The notes: a model not told the origin generated them from the sequence alone. A stretch of 64,000 nucleotides of DNA from Candidatus Aminicenantota bacterium (GCA_011773465.1 WVXO01000039.1:10898-74897); one strand, 5' to 3'. Positions 10,703 through 63,859 are shown, counted from the first letter of the stretch. Made by a program: numbers and translations.

Positions 10703-13445
10703 CTTAGGAGAAAGAAAACTAGCGCCATTTTTTCTCCTGTTTTTCTTTATTCTTTTCGTACCCAAGGAATCTTTTTCCCTGTCTCAAAAGCCCTCTCCTC
10801 TCATAGCCAAAGTATCTATCTGGATTGACGGCCAGCCTGACGGTGAAGATATAGCAGAATTGATTCCTGTTAAAGAAGGCGAGGAGTTCTCTTTAAAAAA
10901 GATCAGCAGCAGCATTAAACAGATTTACAGGACCGGGCTTTTCTCTGATGTTCAGGTTTTGAAGGAGGGAGAGCAGGAAATCCAGCTTACTTTTCTTCTG
11001 ACCAGGCGGTATTTTATTAGAAAGATTATTTTTAGGGGAAGACAAAAGGTCTCTCGTAAGGACCTAAAGGAAAGCTTGCTCTCTTTATCCGAGGGAAGTT
11101 TTTTCTCCGATGAGAAGGTGAGCAAGGCTGTTGGAGAATTAAAGGAAGCTCTGACCAAGAAAGGCTATTTTCAACCTGAGATTGAGGCGGTTGCAGAGAG
11201 AGATTTCAAAAGTCCCACGCTTAATGTGATTTTTGAGATTAACTCTGCCAAAACCTACATTATCAAGAAAATCGCTTTTTCAGGAGAAAAGATTATCCCT
11301 GAAGCTGAATTGAAGAAACAGATGAAAATTAAGGAAGGAGATGTTTACGTCCCCTCAGTTATCGATGAGGATCTTACGAGGCTTAAAGAATTTTATAGCT
11401 CGAAGGGCTATCAGAGGACAGAGATTGATATCGAAGAAGCAAGATTTGATGAAGGGAAGCAGGGTGCTTACCTTACTTTAAGAATTATCCCACATGAGAA
11501 AATAGAGATTGTTGTAGAAGGAGCTCAAGTTCCTTTGAGACTTCTGGAACCAATCTGGGAGCCAAGAATATTTGAAGAGTGGGGGCTGGCCGAAGGAGAG
11601 GCAAAAATTATAGGTTACCTGAGGAAAAAAGGTTACCTTTTTTGTTCTGTCAAATCGTCCATTGAAAAAGTGGATAATGAGATGCGCGTTATTTATAAAG
11701 TCAGCCCGGGCGAGAAATTCAAGATTAAGGATATTTCATTTGAAGGTCAGGAATATTTTACTCCTGAACAGCTAAAAAGAGAGCTTGCCTCAAATGCAAA
11801 TGCTCCTTTTTCGAGCTGGATAGATGGGGAAAAACTGTTTGAATTGCCCGCAGAGATAGAATTTCTGTATAAGACCAGAGGATTTCCTGATGCAAGAGTA
11901 AGTTTGAATTTTTTTCCGCAGGGAAAAGAGGTGAGAGCCTATTTTTTTATTGAGGAGGGGAGCCAGGAGAAAATTGAAAAGATATCTTTTGAAGGAACAA
12001 ACCTGTTTAACAAGGAGATCCTTCTTAAGCAAATAGGCAGTTTTGAAGGGGGTTTTTTCTACCAGCCCAAACTCCAGAAAGACATGGAGAGACTTGTTAA
12101 CTTTTACCTGAACCAGGGCGTTAGAGGAACTGAAATTCGGGCCAGGGTTGAACAAATCAGAGAGAATCTTTTCTCTGTTTTTTTCAGTCTTAAAGAAGGG
12201 AAAAAAGTCAAGATTGAGAGAATTTTGACTACGGGAAATGTTGTTACGAAAAGGCGCACTATTATCAGAGAGCTTAGAGTAAAAGAGGGAGAATATGCTC
12301 TCTACGAAAGAATACGAGAGTCGAAAAGAAGGCTTGAAAAGCTGGGTATTTTCACAGAAGTGAAAATGGATGAAATTCCTATCTCTACGGAGAAGGAAAA
12401 CTTGATCGTCAGAGTCAGGGAAGGCAAGAGAAATTATGCCGGGCTCGGTGTAGGATTGGAGACCAGGAGCGAGCGCCAGACTTTTGCTCTCTGGAATAAT
12501 CCGGTCAGGCTTAGAGGAACAGTTGAGTTTATCAAGAGTAATGTTTTAGGTTCAGCAGCTCAGCTCAGCCTCGTTGGGCAATTCAGTTTAAAAGAAAGAA
12601 GAGGGGTTTTTTCCTGGGATCAGCCTTACTTTTTTGGACTCCCGATTCAGACATATATGAACGCTTGGCTGGAGAGAGAAGAGCGGGAGAGCTTTACCTT
12701 CGACCGCCAAGGCGTGAGTCTGACGGCCATCAAGTCCATTTCAAAGAATCTCTTGTTCCTGATGACTATGAGGTGGGCCAGGACAAATTTTGTTACTCTG
12801 CAGATCGAAGAATCAGAAGTTGACCGCCAGCATCGTCCTTTTTCTGCAACTTCTGTCTCCGGTAGCTTCATCTGGGATAGAAGGGATGAACCTTTTAATA
12901 CAGAGAGAGGGTCTTTTTTAAGTTTTGTCGTGGAAAGGGCTTTTCCTTTTCTCAAGTCTGATTCAAATTATTTGAAAAGCTTCATCAAGTATAAGCAGTT
13001 TATCCCTGTTTTTTCCGGTGTTACTTTCAGCACCACAACCCGGCTTGGCCTGGGAGGAGGCAGAAAGCCCATTCCTATTCACGAGAGGTTTTTTGGAGGA
13101 GGCAGCAACTCTTTCCGTGGAGCGAGGTTCGACGAGCTGGGTCCAAAAGACCCTGTTTCGCTAAAGCCTGTCGGAGGAGAAGCTCTTTTTTTGTTAAACT
13201 TTGAACTGACATTTCCACTGATTTCCGCGATTAAAGATCTATCAGGAGCTATTTTTTACGATAAGGGAAATGTTTTCGAGGATACGAAGCATTTCAGCGT
13301 TGCTGCTCTTGAGGATGCTGTGGGGGTCGGAATTCGGTATCGTACTCCTTTGGGTCCCGTACGGTTGGAAGTAGGCTGGAATTTGGATGCAAAGAACGGA
13401 GAAACAAAGCCCTTAGTTTTTATAACGATCGGAAATGTCTTCTAA
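10677..13445 (+). CDS. BamA/TamA-family outer membrane protein with POTRA repeats
   Basis: Repeated POTRA-like GLFSDVQVLKE / KIEKISFEGTNLFNKEILLKQIG; C-terminal barrel FFGGGSNSFRGARFDELGP, VGVGIRYRTPLGPVRLEVGW. ATG at 10677 overlaps the tamB 3' end. Confidence 0.92.
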   Translation: MLKFIRDSSLGERKLAPFFLLFFFILFVPKESFSLSQKPSPLIAKVSIWIDGQPDGEDIAELIPVKEGEEFSLKKISSSIKQIYRTGLFSDVQVLKEGEQEIQLTFLLTRRYFIRKIIFRGRQKVSRKDLKESLLSLSEGSFFSDEKVSKAVGELKEALTKKGYFQPEIEAVAERDFKSPTLNVIFEINSAKTYIIKKIAFSGEKIIPEAELKKQMKIKEGDVYVPSVIDEDLTRLKEFYSSKGYQRTEIDIEEARFDEGKQGAYLTLRIIPHEKIEIVVEGAQVPLRLLEPIWEPRIFEEWGLAEGEAKIIGYLRKKGYLFCSVKSSIEKVDNEMRVIYKVSPGEKFKIKDISFEGQEYFTPEQLKRELASNANAPFSSWIDGEKLFELPAEIEFLYKTRGFPDARVSLNFFPQGKEVRAYFFIEEGSQEKIEKISFEGTNLFNKEILLKQIGSFEGGFFYQPKLQKDMERLVNFYLNQGVRGTEIRARVEQIRENLFSVFFSLKEGKKVKIERILTTGNVVTKRRTIIRELRVKEGEYALYERIRESKRRLEKLGIFTEVKMDEIPISTEKENLIVRVREGKRNYAGLGVGLETRSERQTFALWNNPVRLRGTVEFIKSNVLGSAAQLSLVGQFSLKERRGVFSWDQPYFFGLPIQTYMNAWLEREERESFTFDRQGVSLTAIKSISKNLLFLMTMRWARTNFVTLQIEESEVDRQHRPFSATSVSGSFIWDRRDEPFNTERGSFLSFVVERAFPFLKSDSNYLKSFIKYKQFIPVFSGVTFSTTTRLGLGGGRKPIPIHERFFGGGSNSFRGARFDELGPKDPVSLKPVGGEALFLLNFELTFPLISAIKDLSGAIFYDKGNVFEDTKHFSVAALEDAVGVGIRYRTPLGPVRLEVGWNLDAKNGETKPLVFITIGNVF

Positions 13446-56445: not shown

Positions 56446-57917
56446 ATGAATATTGAACAATCATGTCATTTATGTGGGCTTGAGGCAGGTTATCCTCCCC
56501 GTCATAAGAATCCTCTTATTTACGGTTTTTCTTGTAGACGATGTGGAAATTATTATATTGATAGCTTCTTAGTGGATTTGGGTGAGCCTACTGAAAATGA
56601 GGATAGAGCAATTCTTTCTGGGTTTACACGGTGGGAGAATGAATTAGGAAGACCAACACCAGAAATACTAAATGAAAACTATAAAGATATTATAGAAAAT
56701 AATAAAAATTATTCAGACGAAGAGAAAGTCGATAAATTATTAATATATTATTCCAAAAAATATCCAAAAAAGGGATTATCTCCAAATTATGATTCCAATT
56801 TGGATTATCCAATTACGTTCTCTAATGATAACAATGAGTTTCTTTATTTGCTAAAAGATTTAGCTGATAAATACATTGGATTTATAGAACATAAAGCTAA
56901 GGGAATTTTTCAGATAAGACCAAAGGGTTGGAAAAGAATTGAATGGCTCAGAAAGCTAGAACTTGCTGGCGAGAAATATGAAATAGAACGTGAAAAGATT
57001 ATGAAAAAGATTAATTCTAATGAAGCAGAGATGAAGGAGAAAGCAGGGCTTGAGGGCATGAGATGGTCAAGTAGTTTATCGAGAAAAATTAGAGATTTAT
57101 ACTTACAAGGAACGATTGAAAAGTTAGAAAAAAAGCTAGAAATTGAAAAAAAATCCTGGGATTACAGATTGTTACGAAAGCTGAAGATATTAATTACTTA
57201 TCTGAGCGTATCGGAGAATTAGCAGAATTTGAAAAAAGCTTTTTAGCTAGAAGATTGATAGAGATTTATGAAGATTGCAAAGCACAAAGTCTTTTCGGTC
57301 ACGATATTACAGAAGTTTATAGTGTGGTAGATAAGAAGGCTAAGGAAATATTAATTGATTTAGAAGTTGGGGGATTAAAGAAAGAAAAAGTTAAAATTCC
57401 TGAATTGCCAGAAAGAGATATTGATACTCTAGTTGAAATGGATGAGAGTATTCAGCTTGAATTTAAATCAACCTTTCAATGGGATGTTGTACAAAAGCGT
57501 AAAAACAAGGAGTTAAGGAAAGAAGTTATTAGAACTATTGCAGCTTTTAACAATACAGAAGGCGGATACCTAATAATCGGTGTGAGTGATGATAAGACTA
57601 TATTTGGATTAGAGAAAGATTATAGTTCATTTAAGAATCGTGGTGAAAGAGATGAAAGAGATGTTTTTCTTCAGACGTTATCTAATATTATTGAAAATAA
57701 TATAAGCCGAGAGTTTTCAACAAAAATAGACGTGGAATTTCATAATAAAGAGGGAAAGGATATATGTAGAATAAAAGTTAGTTTCGGAGATGAGCCTGTC
57801 TGGGTTAAGGAAAACCAGAAAGGCGAAGTGTTTTATATTCGGACTCAAAATTCAGAGAAGTCATTATCTCCTAAAGCAAGTTATCAATATATACATAGAA
57901 AATGGAAGAAAGATTGA
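56446..57917 (+). pseudogene. Zinc-ribbon-like N-terminus + AlbA_2 (Schlafen-type) domain protein, split in two ORFs (56446..57222 and 57255..57917) at an A8 tract
   Basis: CHLCGLEAGYPP...CRRCGNYY in ORF1; ESIQLEFKSTFQWD...AAFNNTEGGYLIIGVSDD AlbA_2 in ORF2. The ORF2 frame is open back to 57147, at the A8 tract 57146-57153. Confidence 0.65.
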
Positions 57918-57926
57918 GCCAAGTGC

Positions 57927-57971
57927 AAGCCAAATCCCCTAAAGCCCTAGCCTCCTGGAATTGAAAAAATA
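57927..57971 (+). repeat. 3'-of-gene hairpin repeat, copy 1
   Basis: AAGCCAAATCCCCTAAAGCCCTAGCCTCCTGGAATTGAAAAAATAC. Confidence 0.8.
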
Positions 57972-58291
57972 CACTAAGCAGATTTAGAGAATATCCCCCT
58001 TTCTTTTTCCACCAATTATGTGAAAATCTTTGTTGAAATTTAGAAAATCTCTTTATTAAAAAGTTGAACTAATTATACTTATGGTGAATTGCACAAATTT
58101 TGGGCATAAGTGAAAGCGGGCTGTTGTCAGCAAAAGGGGGGTTGATTATGGGGTATAAATGAAGGTGTTCTCTCCAGCCCGCACAAGAGAACCATGACTT
58201 TTTATATCAGAAAGATAAAATCTTGTAAAGCATAAATTGACATCAAATCTCTTCAGTGCTATAAGTCATAGAGTCACAGCTTAGGGACAAT

Positions 58292-58378
58292 ATGAATCCA
58301 GCAAAGAGGGAAGAATTCCTCTTTAAACAAGAAAAACAGATTTCTATCCCCATGCCTATAAAAAAAGGAAGGGAATGA
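58292..58378 (+). CDS. 28-aa small ORF overlapping the next start as ATGA
   Basis: MNPAKREEFLFKQEKQISIPMPIKKGRE*; its TGA overlaps the ATG at 58375. Confidence 0.3.
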   Translation: MNPAKREEFLFKQEKQISIPMPIKKGRE

Positions 58379-58599
58379 AACCGATAACAATACTAGCAAT
58401 AGTCCTTTTGGCTTTGCACTGGAAAGGACCAAACGCAGTTTGGGGTGGAGCTACTTTGGGGGTGATAGTGGGGTTTATAGTCGCCCTCGTTGTCGGAGAC
58501 TGGGGTCTTCTTGCACTAATATTTGCAATCGGCACCATTGCTGGAACGATTTTTGAATGGATTGGTCGCTTAGCCAAACGAATGGGTCGTAGACTGTGA
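58375..58599 (+). CDS. Small hydrophobic membrane protein
   Basis: MKPITILAIVLLALHWKGPNAVWGGATLGVIVGFIVALVVGDWG... Confidence 0.6.
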   Translation: MKPITILAIVLLALHWKGPNAVWGGATLGVIVGFIVALVVGDWGLLALIFAIGTIAGTIFEWIGRLAKRMGRRL

Positions 58600-58613
58600 A
58601 AGAGAAGTGGTTA

Positions 58614-58660
58614 GAAGCCAAATCCCATAAAGCCTTGGCTTCTCGATTCTGAAAAAGACA
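58614..58660 (+). repeat. 3'-of-gene hairpin repeat, copy 2
   Basis: GAAGCCAAATCCCATAAAGCCTTGGCTTCTCGATTCTGAAAAAGACA with perfect 8-bp GAAGCCAA/TTGGCTTC stem. Confidence 0.85.
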
Positions 58661-58678
58661 ACGAGACTGAAAAATAAA

Positions 58679-58876
58679 CTAGAGACACCAGAAGAACTTC
58701 TCTCCAAATTGGATTCTTAAACGCACGTTCCATGAAAGCCACCACAAGGAAAAAGCACCTATATTGAGCGTTGTCATATTTTTGAAGTAATCGTATCGGT
58801 GTTTAAGAGACTCAAGTCGGACTTTTATAAATTCAGTTATAAGTCTTGTCTGACTTGGCATTTCTGTGCTCGCCAT
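58679..58876 (-). CDS. Small membrane protein, possibly truncated
   Basis: AGGAGG Shine-Dalgarno just upstream of ATG 58876; LKHRYDYFKNMTTLNIGAFSLWWLSW. Confidence 0.5.
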   Translation of the reverse strand: MASTEMPSQTRLITEFIKVRLESLKHRYDYFKNMTTLNIGAFSLWWLSWNVRLRIQFGEKFFWCL

Positions 58877-58906
58877 AACCTCCTAAATGACCTCTCTAGA
58901 GAGCGA

Positions 58907-59095
58907 TTATTTCTCAGTATCCATAAATGCTTTTATAAGTGCCTTTGGTTCACCTTTCCAGAACGACTTGAATCGCATCTTGCTACGCTTACCAATCGGA
59001 TACCTAACGATGAGGAGATATTCGCCGTTGTAGTGTTCAAAACAATCATCTAAAATGGCCTTAACAAATTTTAAATTTATCTTTTTTTCGTACAT
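58907..59095 (-). CDS. Hypothetical 62-aa protein, first gene of a minus-strand pair
   Basis: AGGAGG upstream of ATG 59095; MYEKKINLKFVKAILDDCFEHYNGEYLLIVRYPIGKRSKMRFKSFWKG. Confidence 0.55.
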   Translation of the reverse strand: MYEKKINLKFVKAILDDCFEHYNGEYLLIVRYPIGKRSKMRFKSFWKGEPKALIKAFMDTEK

Positions 59096-59375
59096 AAACA
59101 CCTCCTCTTTTGCTTTGGTTTTATAGTATTCCGGAAGGTGGGGGTGTGTCAATCTAGGCTACCAGCAGAGAAAGTCTAGAAACACTTCTCCAGCTCTTTT
59201 GTCGTCTTCCTCAAATCCCTTCTGGTCAAATAAATTTCTTGTTTTTCTCGTAAGTAATCTCTATGGTCTAGCTATTAGGAGTCCCGGAGTCTCTATACCC
59301 CCCTCCTTGACTTCACGGGCACCTGAGAGTAAAATCACTCTGAGTTTGTCAGTAGAATAAGCAAGGGAGGCAAAA

Positions 59376-59900
59376 ATGAAAAAATCACTCATTCAATCCA
59401 TCACAATCATTCCTTTTGTTTTTTTGCTTTGTAATACTTTTTGTTGGCTTAAGCAGAGTGAAGAAGTAGCAAAGCCCTCACTTGAACAAACTAAGATAGC
59501 CTTTCAGTCAAACAGAGATGGGTCTTGGGAAATCTATGTTATGAATGCAGATGGAAGTGAACAAAAAAGGTTAACAAATAATCATACTGGTGGTGTATCT
59601 CCTTCGTGGTCTCCGGATGGAAAGAAAATAGCTTTTCAATCAGACAGAGATGAGAATAGGGAAATCTATGTTATGAATGCAGATGGAAGTGAACAGAAAA
59701 GATTAACAAATAATCGAGCTAATGATTTGTATCCCTCTTGGTCTCCGGATGGAAAGAAAATAGCTTTTTTCTCAGATAGAGATGGGAATTGGGAAATCTA
59801 TGTTATGAACGCAGATGGAAGTGGATAAACAAATTTAACAAATAATCCTGCTGCTGACTTTAGTCCTTCTTGGTCTCCATTTTTGAAAAATAGGAAATAA
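59376..59900 (+). pseudogene. TolB/WD40-like PD40-repeat protein interrupted by an in-frame TAA at 59826
   Basis: Three 132-bp units ([30 protein letters not shown]...SWSPDGK); after TAA the frame continues TNLTNNPAADFSPSWSPFLKNRK* to 59900. Confidence 0.75.
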
Positions 59901-60010
59901 CCAACTCAGAAATCTGCTTTCAAAAGCAAAAAAACAAGTTCGATAATTATTTAATAGTAAAGACTTTAAGAAAGTTACAAGCTGATTTAAGGATATTGAT
60001 AGATTAAAAA

Positions 60011-60059
60011 GGAAGCCAAATCCCCTAGAACCCCGGCTTCCCTGGATTGAAAAAGGACA
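60011..60059 (+). repeat. 3'-of-gene hairpin repeat, copy 3
   Basis: GGAAGCCAAATCCCCTAGAACCCCGGCTTCCCTGGATTGAAAAAGGACAA with GGAAGCC/GGCTTCC stem. Confidence 0.85.
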
Positions 60060-60079
60060 ATGAGCGAGTTAGAATTTTT

Positions 60080-61303
60080 ATGAGTGTGGGTAAAATGGAA
60101 AGCAAAACCAAGATTGTTTCAATCATTCTATTATTTTCTACCTTCATGATGTTCGTTTCCTGTGGACAAAAACAAGAAAAAGTGGAGAAGATTATGGAAG
60201 ATGGTGTGGAAGTTGTTCTGAATCACCTTGAGCCTTACAAAATTAAAGGAGAACCTTCTCATTTGAATCTTGATGAAGAATTAATCATTGATTTTGAAAA
60301 GGAAGAATTCACAGAATTAGGAATGACTGACGTTTTAGGATTTGATGTCGATTCTGATGGTAACATATATTTTCTGATTTCGAGAAGTACAAAGAATTTC
60401 ATTTTTAAGTTTGATGACAATGGGAATTTTTTATTCTCCTTTGGACGGAAAGGCCAAGGTCCAGGCGAACTGGGACTATCCAGGTATTTTGCAGTCAATG
60501 AGCTTGATCAAATCGTTGTGACAGATTTTGGCAGGAAAAAACTGCATGTTTTTGAAAGAAACGGAGATCTCATCAAGGAAATATCTCTTGCTTCAAATTA
60601 CCGAAGGGCGGGTCTTCTCAGGAGCGGGAAAATTCTTGCTATGAAGGAAAGTTTTAATAAGGGAGAAGGAAGGTTAGAATTTCCAATAATATTATGTAAT
60701 GAAGATTTGGAAGAAATGAAGATGTTGCATCCAGGAAAACACATGCCTAATTTCACTTTTGCAAATAAAGTCAATGGCTTGCAGCTATATATTGATTACA
60801 ATGTATGGAAAATCTCAAGAGGGCTAATCTATGTGGGCAATTATGGCAGCGGATACGAGTTTTTGATTTATGATGAAGAGGGAAATTTACTCCGAAAAAT
60901 TAGGAAAGAATATCAAAAAGTCAAAGTTCCTGACCAAATAAAAGAAAAAATTTTTAATTGGTTAAAGAATAACTTAACTCAATTCGAGCAAGTGAAAACA
61001 AAGCTCTATTTTCCTGAATTCTATCCTTCGTTTCAATTTTTCTTTCTGGATGAGAGAAGCAGACTTTATGTGATGACTTATGAAAGAGGAAAGGGCCCAA
61101 ATGGATTTATGTACGACATTTTTAATCCTAACGGCGTATTAATCGGGAGAATAGAGTTGGAAAATTACGGATTTCTGGCTTCTTCCCCCATCATAAATCC
61201 CTTACCCTTGAATGTCGTGGCAAAAAACCAAAGCCTCTACTGTCTTAGAGAAGGTGAAAACGGCTATAAGGGATTGGTCGTTTATAAGATGAAGTGGGAG
61301 TAA
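60080..61303 (+). CDS. 6-bladed beta-propeller lipoprotein
   Basis: Lipobox FMMFVSCGQ; DVLGFDVDSDGNIYFLI...IFKFDDNGNFLFSFGRKGQGPGEL. The track start at 60047 is a TTG inside repeat copy 3; ATG 60080 or 60095 more likely. Confidence 0.82.
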   Translation: MSVGKMESKTKIVSIILLFSTFMMFVSCGQKQEKVEKIMEDGVEVVLNHLEPYKIKGEPSHLNLDEELIIDFEKEEFTELGMTDVLGFDVDSDGNIYFLISRSTKNFIFKFDDNGNFLFSFGRKGQGPGELGLSRYFAVNELDQIVVTDFGRKKLHVFERNGDLIKEISLASNYRRAGLLRSGKILAMKESFNKGEGRLEFPIILCNEDLEEMKMLHPGKHMPNFTFANKVNGLQLYIDYNVWKISRGLIYVGNYGSGYEFLIYDEEGNLLRKIRKEYQKVKVPDQIKEKIFNWLKNNLTQFEQVKTKLYFPEFYPSFQFFFLDERSRLYVMTYERGKGPNGFMYDIFNPNGVLIGRIELENYGFLASSPIINPLPLNVVAKNQSLYCLREGENGYKGLVVYKMKWE

Positions 61304-61313
61304 ATATTATAAA

Positions 61314-61356
61314 GCAAAATCCCCTAAAGCCTTGGCTCCCATGGATTAAAAAGGCA
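61314..61356 (+). repeat. 3'-of-gene hairpin repeat, copy 4
   Basis: GCAAAATCCCCTAAAGCCTTGGCTCCCATGGATTAAAAAGGCA, 11 nt after a stop codon. Confidence 0.75.
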
Positions 61357-61430
61357 GCTTCTGGGTAAGAATAGGGCCAGTCCCCTTTCTCCTGCTCGGG
61401 CGGTAATCTCTTGTCTCAATAATAGGTCTT

Positions 61431-61503
61431 GGGGAGTAGTGCAGCCTGGTTAGCGCGCCTGCCTTGGAAGCAGGAGGTCGTCAGTTCAAATCAGATCTCC
61501 CCA
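61431..61503 (+). tRNA. tRNA-Pro(UGG)-like, possibly degenerate
   Basis: GGGGAGTAGTGCAGCCTGGTTAGCGCGCCTGCCTTGGAAGCAGGAGGTCGTCAGTTCAAATCAGATCTCCCCA; anticodon loop CTTGGAA, mismatches in acceptor position 7-66 and T stem. Confidence 0.6.
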
Positions 61504-61573
61504 ATCAATGATTAAGACGGATAAAGCAACAATCGGATATCAAAGCCGATTGAGATATAATGATATCAAGGAT

Positions 61574-61650
61574 GCGACTGTAGATCAGTAGGATAGAGCA
61601 GCTGCTTTCTTAGCAGCGGATCGGGAGTTCGGGTATCTCCAGGCGCGCCA
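61574..61650 (+). tRNA. tRNA-Arg(UCU)-like, degenerate
   Basis: GCGACTGTAGATCAGTAGGATAGAGCAGCTGCTTTCTTAGCAGCGGATCGGGAGTTCGGGTATCTCCAGGCGCGCCA; loop TTTCTTA; single mismatches in the acceptor, D and T stems. Confidence 0.5.
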
Positions 61651-61820
61651 TCCTTTTCTCTTTATTTTTCAATAGCTTTCCTCAGAGTAAAGTTTTAGCC
61701 ATAGTGTGTAATTTTAGTTTATTTTTGCCACTGAATGGCAAACAAGTGGCAAATCTATTAAGTGAAATGAGAGAATAGGTCTATTTGGAGATAGAGCGAC
61801 GGACTCCTTCTGACTAAAGT

Positions 61821-62615
61821 TTAAAAAGGGTGCTTAGGGATTCCGAATATCAGGAACTCCGCCAGGATTACCAGGCTACCCATTAACAACATAATGAAAC
61901 CATTCAGTCCCGAGACCTCAGCATGATGAGCGCCACTGTAGACCCGCTTGGCCCACAGATGACCGCACAGGGCAAACAAACCAGTTACAGCCAGCCCGGT
62001 GGCGGCAAATCCACCCCACAAAAGGAGTTGTTCTGAATTATACAGGTAATTGTACAGAACGATCATGGCCATATAGGGAGCTACACCCGCTATCATCACC
62101 AACAGGCGGCGGGAGAATGACTGCTGGGGATCAATCCCCAGATTTCTCTGGGCCTCAGACCAGATAATCAGGGCAAAAAGAACGTAGACACTCCCCATTG
62201 CTGACAGCAGAATCGGACTGACTCCGAGACTGGTTAATTCAGCTCCGTCCCCAACGTTATATAACACCCCAAAGATCAGATAAATCCCGTTGATCAAAAA
62301 GCCAAGGCCAGCCAGAAGTTTGAGCACCAGTTTAATTCCGTTATTCTTCACCAGACTGATAAAAAATAGAGGTATTAAGGTGTAACCAAGTCCAATAGTC
62401 ACTCCACCCCAGGCAGTAAATAAAATATCCCGAACACCACGTCCCAGATTCCAACTCCAGGAAAAGGGATTGAGGACAAACTCTTGAATCTGTCCGCCGT
62501 CAATAAGGACAGCCGTGGCATGTCCCAGTTCGTGAAAGGCTACCGCCAGGTTAAAGGCTATGGTGAAGGCCCCAAACAACAGCAAAATTGAGTGAAAGGC
62601 TCGAGTCCGATTCAT
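61821..62615 (-). CDS. Polytopic membrane protein with HExxH (M50-like metalloprotease)
   Basis: FNLAVAFHELGHATAVLIDGG plus multiple TM segments; start ATG 62615. Confidence 0.7.
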   Translation of the reverse strand: MNRTRAFHSILLLFGAFTIAFNLAVAFHELGHATAVLIDGGQIQEFVLNPFSWSWNLGRGVRDILFTAWGGVTIGLGYTLIPLFFISLVKNNGIKLVLKLLAGLGFLINGIYLIFGVLYNVGDGAELTSLGVSPILLSAMGSVYVLFALIIWSEAQRNLGIDPQQSFSRRLLVMIAGVAPYMAMIVLYNYLYNSEQLLLWGGFAATGLAVTGLFALCGHLWAKRVYSGAHHAEVSGLNGFIMLLMGSLVILAEFLIFGIPKHPF

Positions 62616-62775
62616 GAAGATGCTCCCTGAAAATGGCAAAAGCATTTATACCATTTTTAGCTAAGCCTTGTCACTTCTTCTGATGTTATTCTGGATTACG
62701 TGAGGGGAATAGAGGGTAGAATAATCAGTTCATTCATACGCAATACAAATTCAAAGCATATTGGAGACTATCTGA

Positions 62776-62822
62776 CTAACGGATCAGAAGGTCGGGAGTT
62801 CGAGTCTCTCCAGGCGCGCCAC
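62776..62822 (+). pseudogene. 3' half of a tRNA-Arg(ACG)-like sequence
   Basis: CTAACGGATCAGAAGGTCGGGAGTTCGAGTCTCTCCAGGCGCGCCA; anticodon loop CTAACGGA with one extra A; no matching 5' half. Confidence 0.55.
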
Positions 62823-62963
62823 ATATACCATTGATAAATCCTCATTTTCCTTTGGTCGTTCTTAGTCAAATTTGGTGACAATACGGAGAGGTGTTTGCCT
62901 TTGTGATTTGACTTAGCACTTCTCCAGTGCTATAAGTCAAAGGATCACAACTAGGGGATAGAA

Positions 62964-63368
62964 ATGAAAAGCAAAGCCAGCATTGTTTCAATCGTTATTG
63001 CTCTTTCAGTTTTCATAATGCTTGCTTATTGTGGAAAGCAAAAAGCGGAGTGGAAGGGGACAATAAAGGAAGAAAATGGAGTCAAAAGATATAGTCGGTC
63101 GCTTAAGTTTGCATTTCCTAAAAACCACTCAGCATATCAGAGTTTCTCGCTCGATGAAGAAGGTCGGATTTTTGTACAAACTTGGGAGAGGACTGAAAAT
63201 GAGGAAGGAAATTTTTATGATGTCTTCAATTCAGAAGGAAAATATATCGCTAAAATTTTTCTTAAATTTTCTCCTAAGGTATGGAACGGGAATAAGCTTT
63301 ATACAATAGAAGAAGATAAAGACGGATTACAGATTATAAAGAGATATAAAGTTAATTGGAATATATAA
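62964..63368 (+). CDS. Short lipoprotein resembling an internally deleted version of 60080..61303
   Basis: N-term KSKASIVSIVIALSVFIMLAYCGKQK; C-term FPKNHSAYQSFSLDEEGRIFVQTWERTE..FYDVFNSEGKYIAKI resembles FPEFYPSFQFFFLDERSRLYVMTYERGK..MYDIFNPNGVLIGRI. Confidence 0.65.
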   Translation: MKSKASIVSIVIALSVFIMLAYCGKQKAEWKGTIKEENGVKRYSRSLKFAFPKNHSAYQSFSLDEEGRIFVQTWERTENEEGNFYDVFNSEGKYIAKIFLKFSPKVWNGNKLYTIEEDKDGLQIIKRYKVNWNI

Positions 63369-63392
63369 TCTTCAGGATAAATTTGAGGCGTG

Positions 63393-63439
63393 TAGATGCC
63401 AAATCCCCTAAAGCCCTGACTTCCCTGGATTGAAAAAGA
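63393..63439 (+). repeat. 3'-of-gene hairpin repeat, copy 5
   Basis: GATGCCAAATCCCCTAAAGCCCTGACTTCCCTGGATTGAAAAAGAAG. Confidence 0.8.
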
Positions 63440-63511
63440 AGCTGACCGGATTGGCACCTGATAGCTAAAGAGGAGGTAGGGAAAAAATGAATTTTTAACT
63501 AAAGGGTAAAA

Positions 63512-63694
63512 ATGAATTTTGAAGAGAAGATAAAATCTCAAAGAATAATAATCGCTATTGCCTTGATATTGATGTCCTTGATCTAGATTAATTTCGCGAT
63601 AAAAGGCACTCTCACAATTATTTCTTTTATTATATGTCTTGCTTTTTTAGGGACGGCGCTTTATCTCTTATTTGGATTAAAGAAGAAACATTGA
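63512..63694 (+). pseudogene. Two-TM small membrane protein interrupted by in-frame TAG at 63584
   Basis: MNFEEKIKSQRIIIAIALILMSLI*INFAIKGTLTIISFIICLAFLGTALYLLFGLKKKH*. Confidence 0.55.
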
Positions 63695-63701
63695 GGCGAG
63701 T

Positions 63702-63750
63702 GAAAGCCAAATCCCCTGGAATTCCCGCTTCCCTGGGTTGAAAAAGGACA
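63702..63750 (+). repeat. 3'-of-gene hairpin repeat, copy 6
   Basis: GAAAGCCAAATCCCCTGGAATTCCCGCTTCCCTGGGTTGAAAAAGGACA, 8 nt after a TGA stop. Confidence 0.8.
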
Positions 63751-63859
63751 GCCTAAATCATCATCTTATTATTTAGCGTATTTTAATATCTGCCCTTGAC
63801 GCCTCAGTTTGTGTCATATAAAATTGAGAAGACTAAAAGTCAGCAAAGAATAGTTCCTA

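Follow-up and report, generated by a model that had tools for sequence, protein, structure and literature searches.

Genomes of one family of uncultured Candidatus Aminicenantes carry arrays of mostly unrelated accessory genes that are strung together by copies of a conserved intergenic site of about 75 nucleotides. Comparison of the flanking sequences makes it very probable that neighboring genes change at this site, that is, the repeat appears to be the joint between exchangeable units. Whether these arrays constitute an integron-like cassette system, in which a dedicated recombinase would shuffle the units through a sequence-conserved joint distinct from attC, is in our assessment evenly balanced.

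The window analyzed here, a stretch of 64,000 nucleotides (contig C14:10898-74897), comes from a draft genome of 2.59 Mb (81% complete). It contains six copies of the site, all on the plus strand and none before 57.9 kb, in agreement with the initial annotation; a seventh copy lies directly beyond the window end (C14:75871-75929). The number of copies is well beyond chance: the 18-nt core GCCAAATCCCCTAAAGCC, with at most 3 mismatches allowed, has five matches in the window against 0.05 expected, and none of 100 shuffles reaches five. The sixth copy (63,706) has diverged further than these five. The sites and the genes around them are the following (window coordinates):

57255..57917, plus strand, gene for a 220-aa protein before copy 1, AlbA_2-like according to the initial annotation
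57913..57986, plus strand, site copy 1, center CT|GG at ~57949, 3' of the AlbA_2-like gene
58375..58599, plus strand, gene for a 74-aa membrane protein, the unit between copies 1 and 2
58601..58674, plus strand, site copy 2, center at ~58637
59376..59828, plus strand, gene for a PD40-repeat protein ('TolB-like') with an in-frame stop, in the unit between copies 2 and 3
59999..60072, plus strand, site copy 3, center at ~60035, with promoter-like TTGAAA-17-TAGAAT in the right half
60047..60075, plus strand, promoter-like TTGAAA-17-TAGAAT in the right half of copy 3, matching 10 of 12 consensus positions
60080..61303, plus strand, gene for a 6-bladed beta-propeller lipoprotein, the unit between copies 3 and 4, from the commonest cassette gene family
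61298..61371, plus strand, site copy 4, center at ~61334, a weaker copy just 5' of tRNA-Pro and tRNA-Arg genes
62964..63368, plus strand, gene for a 134-aa lipoprotein that ends just 5' of copy 5
63382..63455, plus strand, site copy 5, center at ~63418
63690..63763, plus strand, site copy 6, center at ~63726

All five stop codons previously noted next to the copies (57917, 58599, 61303, 63368, and 63694) are present, but the open reading frame (ORF) ending at 63694 contains an in-frame TAG. Similarly, the copy at 60.0 kb does follow the TolB-like gene, but 59376-59828 is cut short by the in-frame stop, so that this copy follows a broken gene; three tandem 132-nt repeats, corresponding to PD40 blades, are found at 59493-59888. 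Farther downstream, the 3' end of the tRNA-Arg gene (61574-61650) recurs after 1.17 kb at 62785-62821 (37 nt, 86% identity), and the two repeats flank a peptidase-like membrane gene on the minus strand (61821-62645); this duplication is probably the remnant of an element that inserted in the tRNA gene.

Alignments of 86 and then 81 copies show that the repeat is real but longer than described initially, with ~75 conserved nucleotides: ATTGAGGCGAGTGGAAGCCAAA(TC or GA)CCCTAAAGCCCT|GGCTTCCC(TGGATTG or GATTCTG)AAAAAGACAGCTGAGCGAATTAG. Positions within the site are counted hereafter from the bar in CCCTAAAGCCCT|GGCTTCCC. The copies are only ~85% alike, and there is no association between the sequence variants of the left and right halves (16/8/11/11). 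The core does not appear to resemble the usual TTATGTTAAAT-type box of Xer/dif modules. In locus L127 (4324-4334, minus strand), one site contains its 10-nt core twice, CTGGCTTCCC CTGGCCTCCC, which looks like an imprecise joining of two cores.

The conservation of the site is that of sequence, not of fold. The initial annotation took the repeat for a hairpin, and the arms GGAAGCC/GGCTTCC do pair in 85% of the cells across 81 copies; this, however, is what shuffling gives, because both arms are conserved and covariation does not rise above that of shuffles. The shorter dyad AAGCC-CT-GGCTT behaves in the same way, pairing no better than shuffles; RNAalifold finds 0 pairs and no consensus fold for the aligned copies; and neither half of the site shows an evident separate hairpin. 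Folding as single-stranded DNA gives window copies 2 and 3 a modest advantage over shuffles (z -1.95 and -1.10, respectively) and the other four none (z +0.2 to +1.5). Thus, a hairpin is not supported as a conserved feature of the site. Structured RNA was rejected on the lack of covariation, of RNAalifold pairs, and of an Rfam family for the site, and tRNAs are the only credible Rfam matches in the 54-64 kb region. The suggestion of a mobile terminator fares no better, none of the six window copies being terminator-like (a stem plus a T-run).

The window's own genome contains approximately 36 copies. A sequence-only model produced matches in 23 of the 38 genomes of the same family, the richest of which contain 36, 29, 28, 20, and 18 copies, and a single weak match in 56 other genomes of the order; the named relatives are bins of Candidatus Aminicenantes. 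Searches of phages, plasmids, and viral contigs detected no site, and we found no account of such a site in Aminicenantes within open-licence papers. One record binned as Lokiarchaeota (DXJM01000439; L143) contains two sites and a DNA methyltransferase gene that is also present in cassettes of genomes G004 and G013; probably, this is an Aminicenantes contig binned with an archaeon.

The position of the site relative to genes was assessed for 93 copies across 79 loci, which had been selected for holding sites. Only 2 of the 93 copies lie inside an ORF, compared to 70% of random positions. A stop codon on the same strand is located within 150 nt upstream of 67 of the 93 copies (9.8% of random positions) and within 60 nt upstream of 48 (4.7%), and the nearest upstream gene is on the strand of the site in 84 of 91 cases. 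The preference for gene 3' ends noticed in the window is therefore strong genome-wide and family-wide.

Consecutive copies delimit 77 units with a median length of 1,273 bp (~1.3 kb), 50 of which contain exactly one gene, and 98 of the 107 genes in these units run in the direction of the site. As already apparent in the window, the units are mostly unrelated to each other: their 107 proteins form 65 clusters, mostly singletons. The largest family (32 members) consists of 6-bladed beta-propeller lipoproteins; the other proteins include a trypsin-like protease, a KAP NTPase, a TIR protein (ThsB), and further defence-like proteins.

The most direct evidence that the repeat is a joint comes from pairwise comparison of the flanks of 151 sites, with 220 site-free intergenic positions in the same loci as the control. 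Altogether, 139 pairs have a homologous flank, upstream in 57 and downstream in 85, the latter number being inflated by beta-propeller paralogues, and only 3 of these pairs share both flanks; the respective numbers for the control positions are 5, 16, and 3. An earlier subset of the comparison gave 34 upstream, 50 downstream, and 2 both. Copy 2 of the window is a case in point: over 678 bp, the sequence downstream of it matches contig C2 of the same genome at 95% identity, the cassette upstream of it matches G004 at 90%, and each of the two partners is unrelated to copy 2 on its other side. The mini-gene upstream of copy 6 recurs in G001 and G016, where its mini-cassette ends at a different site and is followed by different downstream DNA. 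A whole unit is common to different genomes as well: L057 (12089-14304) and L116 (5637-7841) are 88% identical, and this 2.2-kb stretch, found in G000 and G003, has both of its ends at the site region. All the genomes are draft bins, so cassettes that are 97-98% identical across genera may include binning errors.

Gene content between copies thus differs among genomes, and the change is located at the repeat. The cassette-array idea survived both checks proposed for its refutation: the copies did not turn out to be placed without regard to gene 3' ends, nor was gene order between them identical in all relatives. The exchange of neighbors and the gene-end preference support the cassette-array reading; the hairpin that accompanied it is not supported.

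The exact point of exchange is less sharply defined. In homologous pairs of units, breaks occur at the center (-21 to +3 and -21 to +6) and also at the site edges (left, approximately -34; right, approximately +48), with a scatter from approximately -44 to +48 across pairs, and breakpoint modelling yields wide or scattered intervals rather than a single point. The breaks at the edges imply either that sites are also converted or replaced, or that recombination does not take place at a single point.

The half-sites point to the center. There are 18 left-only and 16 right-only copies; in 15 of the 18 left-only copies, the similarity ends between +4 and +14, and in the 8 right-only copies that could be placed, it begins at approximately -14 to +3. 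The other 8 of the 16 right-only copies were not placed by the ungapped method, probably, owing to small gaps. Half-copies at array ends meet unrelated DNA around AAAGCCCT|GGCTTCCC; for example, the array in L170 (G043) starts with a right half (12858) and ends with a left half (1048). Because AAAGCCCT|GGCTTCCC is the part common to left-only and right-only copies, we infer that the exchange occurs there.

A search with the joined flanks of the single unit of L170 retrieved no contiguous match, and comparison with G009 identified this single-gene unit as a deletion remnant of a longer one. More generally, we found no locus with both flanks of a site together and the site absent, among loci that are biased toward site presence.

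Several arrays occupy island-like places, close to tRNA-Arg genes and to integrase genes or their remnants. A terminal segment with further core-like sequences is common to array ends in four genomes, including the window's own array, and may be an anchor or a secondary recombination region; the best pair is ~77% identical over 116 nt. It is found at

L059 11925-12042 (C14:75924-76041, just outside the window)
L137 7349-7233
L176 781-723
L112 3424-3492

The array end at L056 14670 adjoins the apparent 3' end of a 5S rRNA gene, with a similar flank at array ends in two other genomes (L121 and L165).

Some of the right halves appear to contribute a promoter. Of 117 right halves, 15 contain, at the conserved TTGAAA, a -35/-10 pair matching at least 10 of 12 consensus positions, where shuffling of the downstream part gives 2.4; at least 9 of 12 positions match in 27 (15.3 shuffled). 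Hence a subset of the right halves, represented in the window by copy 3, carries its own promoter-like sequence.

Taken together, these features are best accommodated by the following scheme. The right half of the site (GGCTTCCCTGGATTGAAAAAGACAGCTGAGCG...), including a promoter in a subset of units, would open a unit; usually one accessory gene would follow, and the left half, TTGAGGCGAGTGGAAGCCAAA(TC/GA)CCCTAAAGCCCT, would close the unit just 3' of the stop codon, so that adjacent units would be joined through one full site. The enzyme exchanging DNA near AAAGCCCT|GGCTTCCC would be a site-specific recombinase, most plausibly one of the tyrosine type that acts in trans. Units would be excised and inserted as they are by an integron integrase acting on attC, but with a site that is conserved in sequence and unfolded.

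The initial annotation proposed to look for a tyrosine recombinase or RAYT linked to the array. Searches for IntI, IS91-type, Y1, serine, and phage-type enzymes detected none linked to the site. Serine recombinases (PF00239) were rejected, as most site-rich genomes lack them: they are found in 8 of the 38 family genomes, including the site-rich G013 and G016, and in none of G000-G004, G043, and G050, so that G013 is the only one of the richest genomes to have one. Y1 transposases, present in 30 of the 38 family genomes, including site-free ones, are distributed patchily relative to the sites, with none found in G050 (18 sites) or G018. Three genomes, G000, G002, and G016, contain full-length IS91-type elements accompanied by a tyrosine recombinase, G005, G009, and G043 have additional strong Y2 matches, and sites are present in all six; the Y2/IS91 transposase was nevertheless rejected, being missing from the site-rich G004 and G003 and present in the site-free G052. 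The companion of IS91 in L071 (G000:C7), L156 (G002:C207), and L155 (5484-6350) is integron-integrase-like and lacks the middle part of TIGR02249 (approximately positions 177-236). A phage-type integrase on contig C45 lies 0.7 kb past a half-site; it too was rejected, its close relatives being prophage integrases, mostly, without sites nearby.

Among 41 genomes, only G004, G032, and G033 encode an integron integrase above the TIGR02249 cut-off; the G004 gene is apart from the sites, and G032 and G033 yielded no site. The window's own genome has none above the cut-off, an absence that is not final at 81% completeness. At three places, the G004 integron contains short repeats of its own, ACATAACAA(A/G)TCGNTNCANC(G/T)GA, and the 18 kb around this integron hold no copy of our site. 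In this locus (L159; G004:C47, 5133-14484), the reading frame of the integrase gene is interrupted, attC-like short repeats are located at 11816, 13893, and 15495, and the cassette-like genes resemble nucleotidyltransferase/cyclase-type and SIR2-like defence genes.

The main rival explanation, which we consider unlikely although deserving serious attention, is that the site is a dispersed conserved intergenic element, joint and promoter, between copies of which ordinary homologous or illegitimate recombination occurs without a dedicated enzyme. The scatter of breakpoints in different pairs, the lack of association between left and right variants, and the failure to find a recombinase all favor this explanation, and a promoter in a subset of right halves would account for conservation without a recombinase. 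However, the copies are short and imperfectly alike, the half-sites are joined to unrelated DNA with no more than a short core shared, and the left half has no known cis function.

It strikes us as improbable that the element of 75-110 nt is itself mobile, in the manner of small MITE- or REP-like elements, and inserts after stop codons, with the neighbor changes resulting from unrelated rearrangements. The gene 3'-end preference is of the kind seen in REP elements, and Y1 transposases are widespread in the family; but in nearly every pair only one of the two flanks loses homology at the site, the empty locus that insertion would predict was not found (in the biased set of loci), and the distribution of Y1 does not follow that of the sites, as the site-rich G050 and the site-free genomes illustrate. 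REP/BIME elements with their RAYT partners resemble our site as short repeats after gene ends and differ from it in that here there is no conserved hairpin and no consistent Y1 partner, and the neighbors change at the repeat.

The units are very unlikely to be passive single-strand transposons of an HUH enzyme (IS200/IS605 Y1 or IS91-type Y2), with the joint as a right-end/left-end junction. Such an end-to-end junction would yield the same joint, and the Y2 matches listed above, in G000, G002, G016, G005, G009, and G043, all come from genomes with sites, but the enzyme shows the gaps already mentioned, the IS91 elements that were checked contain no site, and neither half of the site is an evident hairpin. 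A degenerate canonical integron (CALIN) with unusual attC sites, suggested by the array architecture and by the classical integron integrase gene of the relative G004, is scarcely credible given that none of 127 sites contains RYYYAAC...GTTRRRY on either strand (shuffled mean 1.0), as the initial annotation had suspected from the window, that no stem covaries, and that the G004 integron region has repeats of its own and lacks the sites described here.

The capture and shuffling of single genes is the textbook role of integrons, and the resemblance of the Aminicenantes arrays to IntI/attC arrays is extensive: mostly single-gene units in one orientation, with unrelated genes, a recombination-like site directly 3' of each stop codon, one-sided exchange of neighbors, and half-sites at the start and end of the array. 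The differences are equally clear. An attC site has an inverse core RYYYAAC and a core GTTRRRY (PMC3053210). It is recognized as a folded bottom strand and is conserved in fold, whereas the Aminicenantes site is conserved in sequence over 75 nt, lacks the R''/R' boxes, reaches far beyond the joint in both directions, contains a promoter in a subset of copies, and is not accompanied by IntI. The array thus behaves like an array of integron cassettes but, by attC motif, fold, and integrase alike, is not an integron, and integron-like is the best description of it. CALINs are similar in comprising arrays without a linked integrase, several per genome, but their defining motif is the one missing here. 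Finally, tRNA-borne islands with phage-type integrases are reminiscent of the several arrays that adjoin tRNA-Arg genes and integrase genes or remnants, but the integrase family is of the prophage type, and most of its members have no site nearby; islands account for where the arrays reside, not for the joints within them.

We tentatively propose, at somewhat short of even likelihood, that the arrays represent a second, independently evolved cassette system, with a lineage-specific recombinase exchanging single-gene units, a site recognized by its sequence, and a right half that can supply a promoter. If so, a unit would be expressed at any place of insertion, which most integron cassettes are not. 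Arrays of cassettes joined through an unrelated site would demonstrate that the same architecture can come about around a different joint and, perhaps, through a different enzyme. Searches based on attC would miss such arrays and leave the accessory genes of these uncultured bacteria, including the defence-like ones, uncounted, whereas the site itself is easy to search for.
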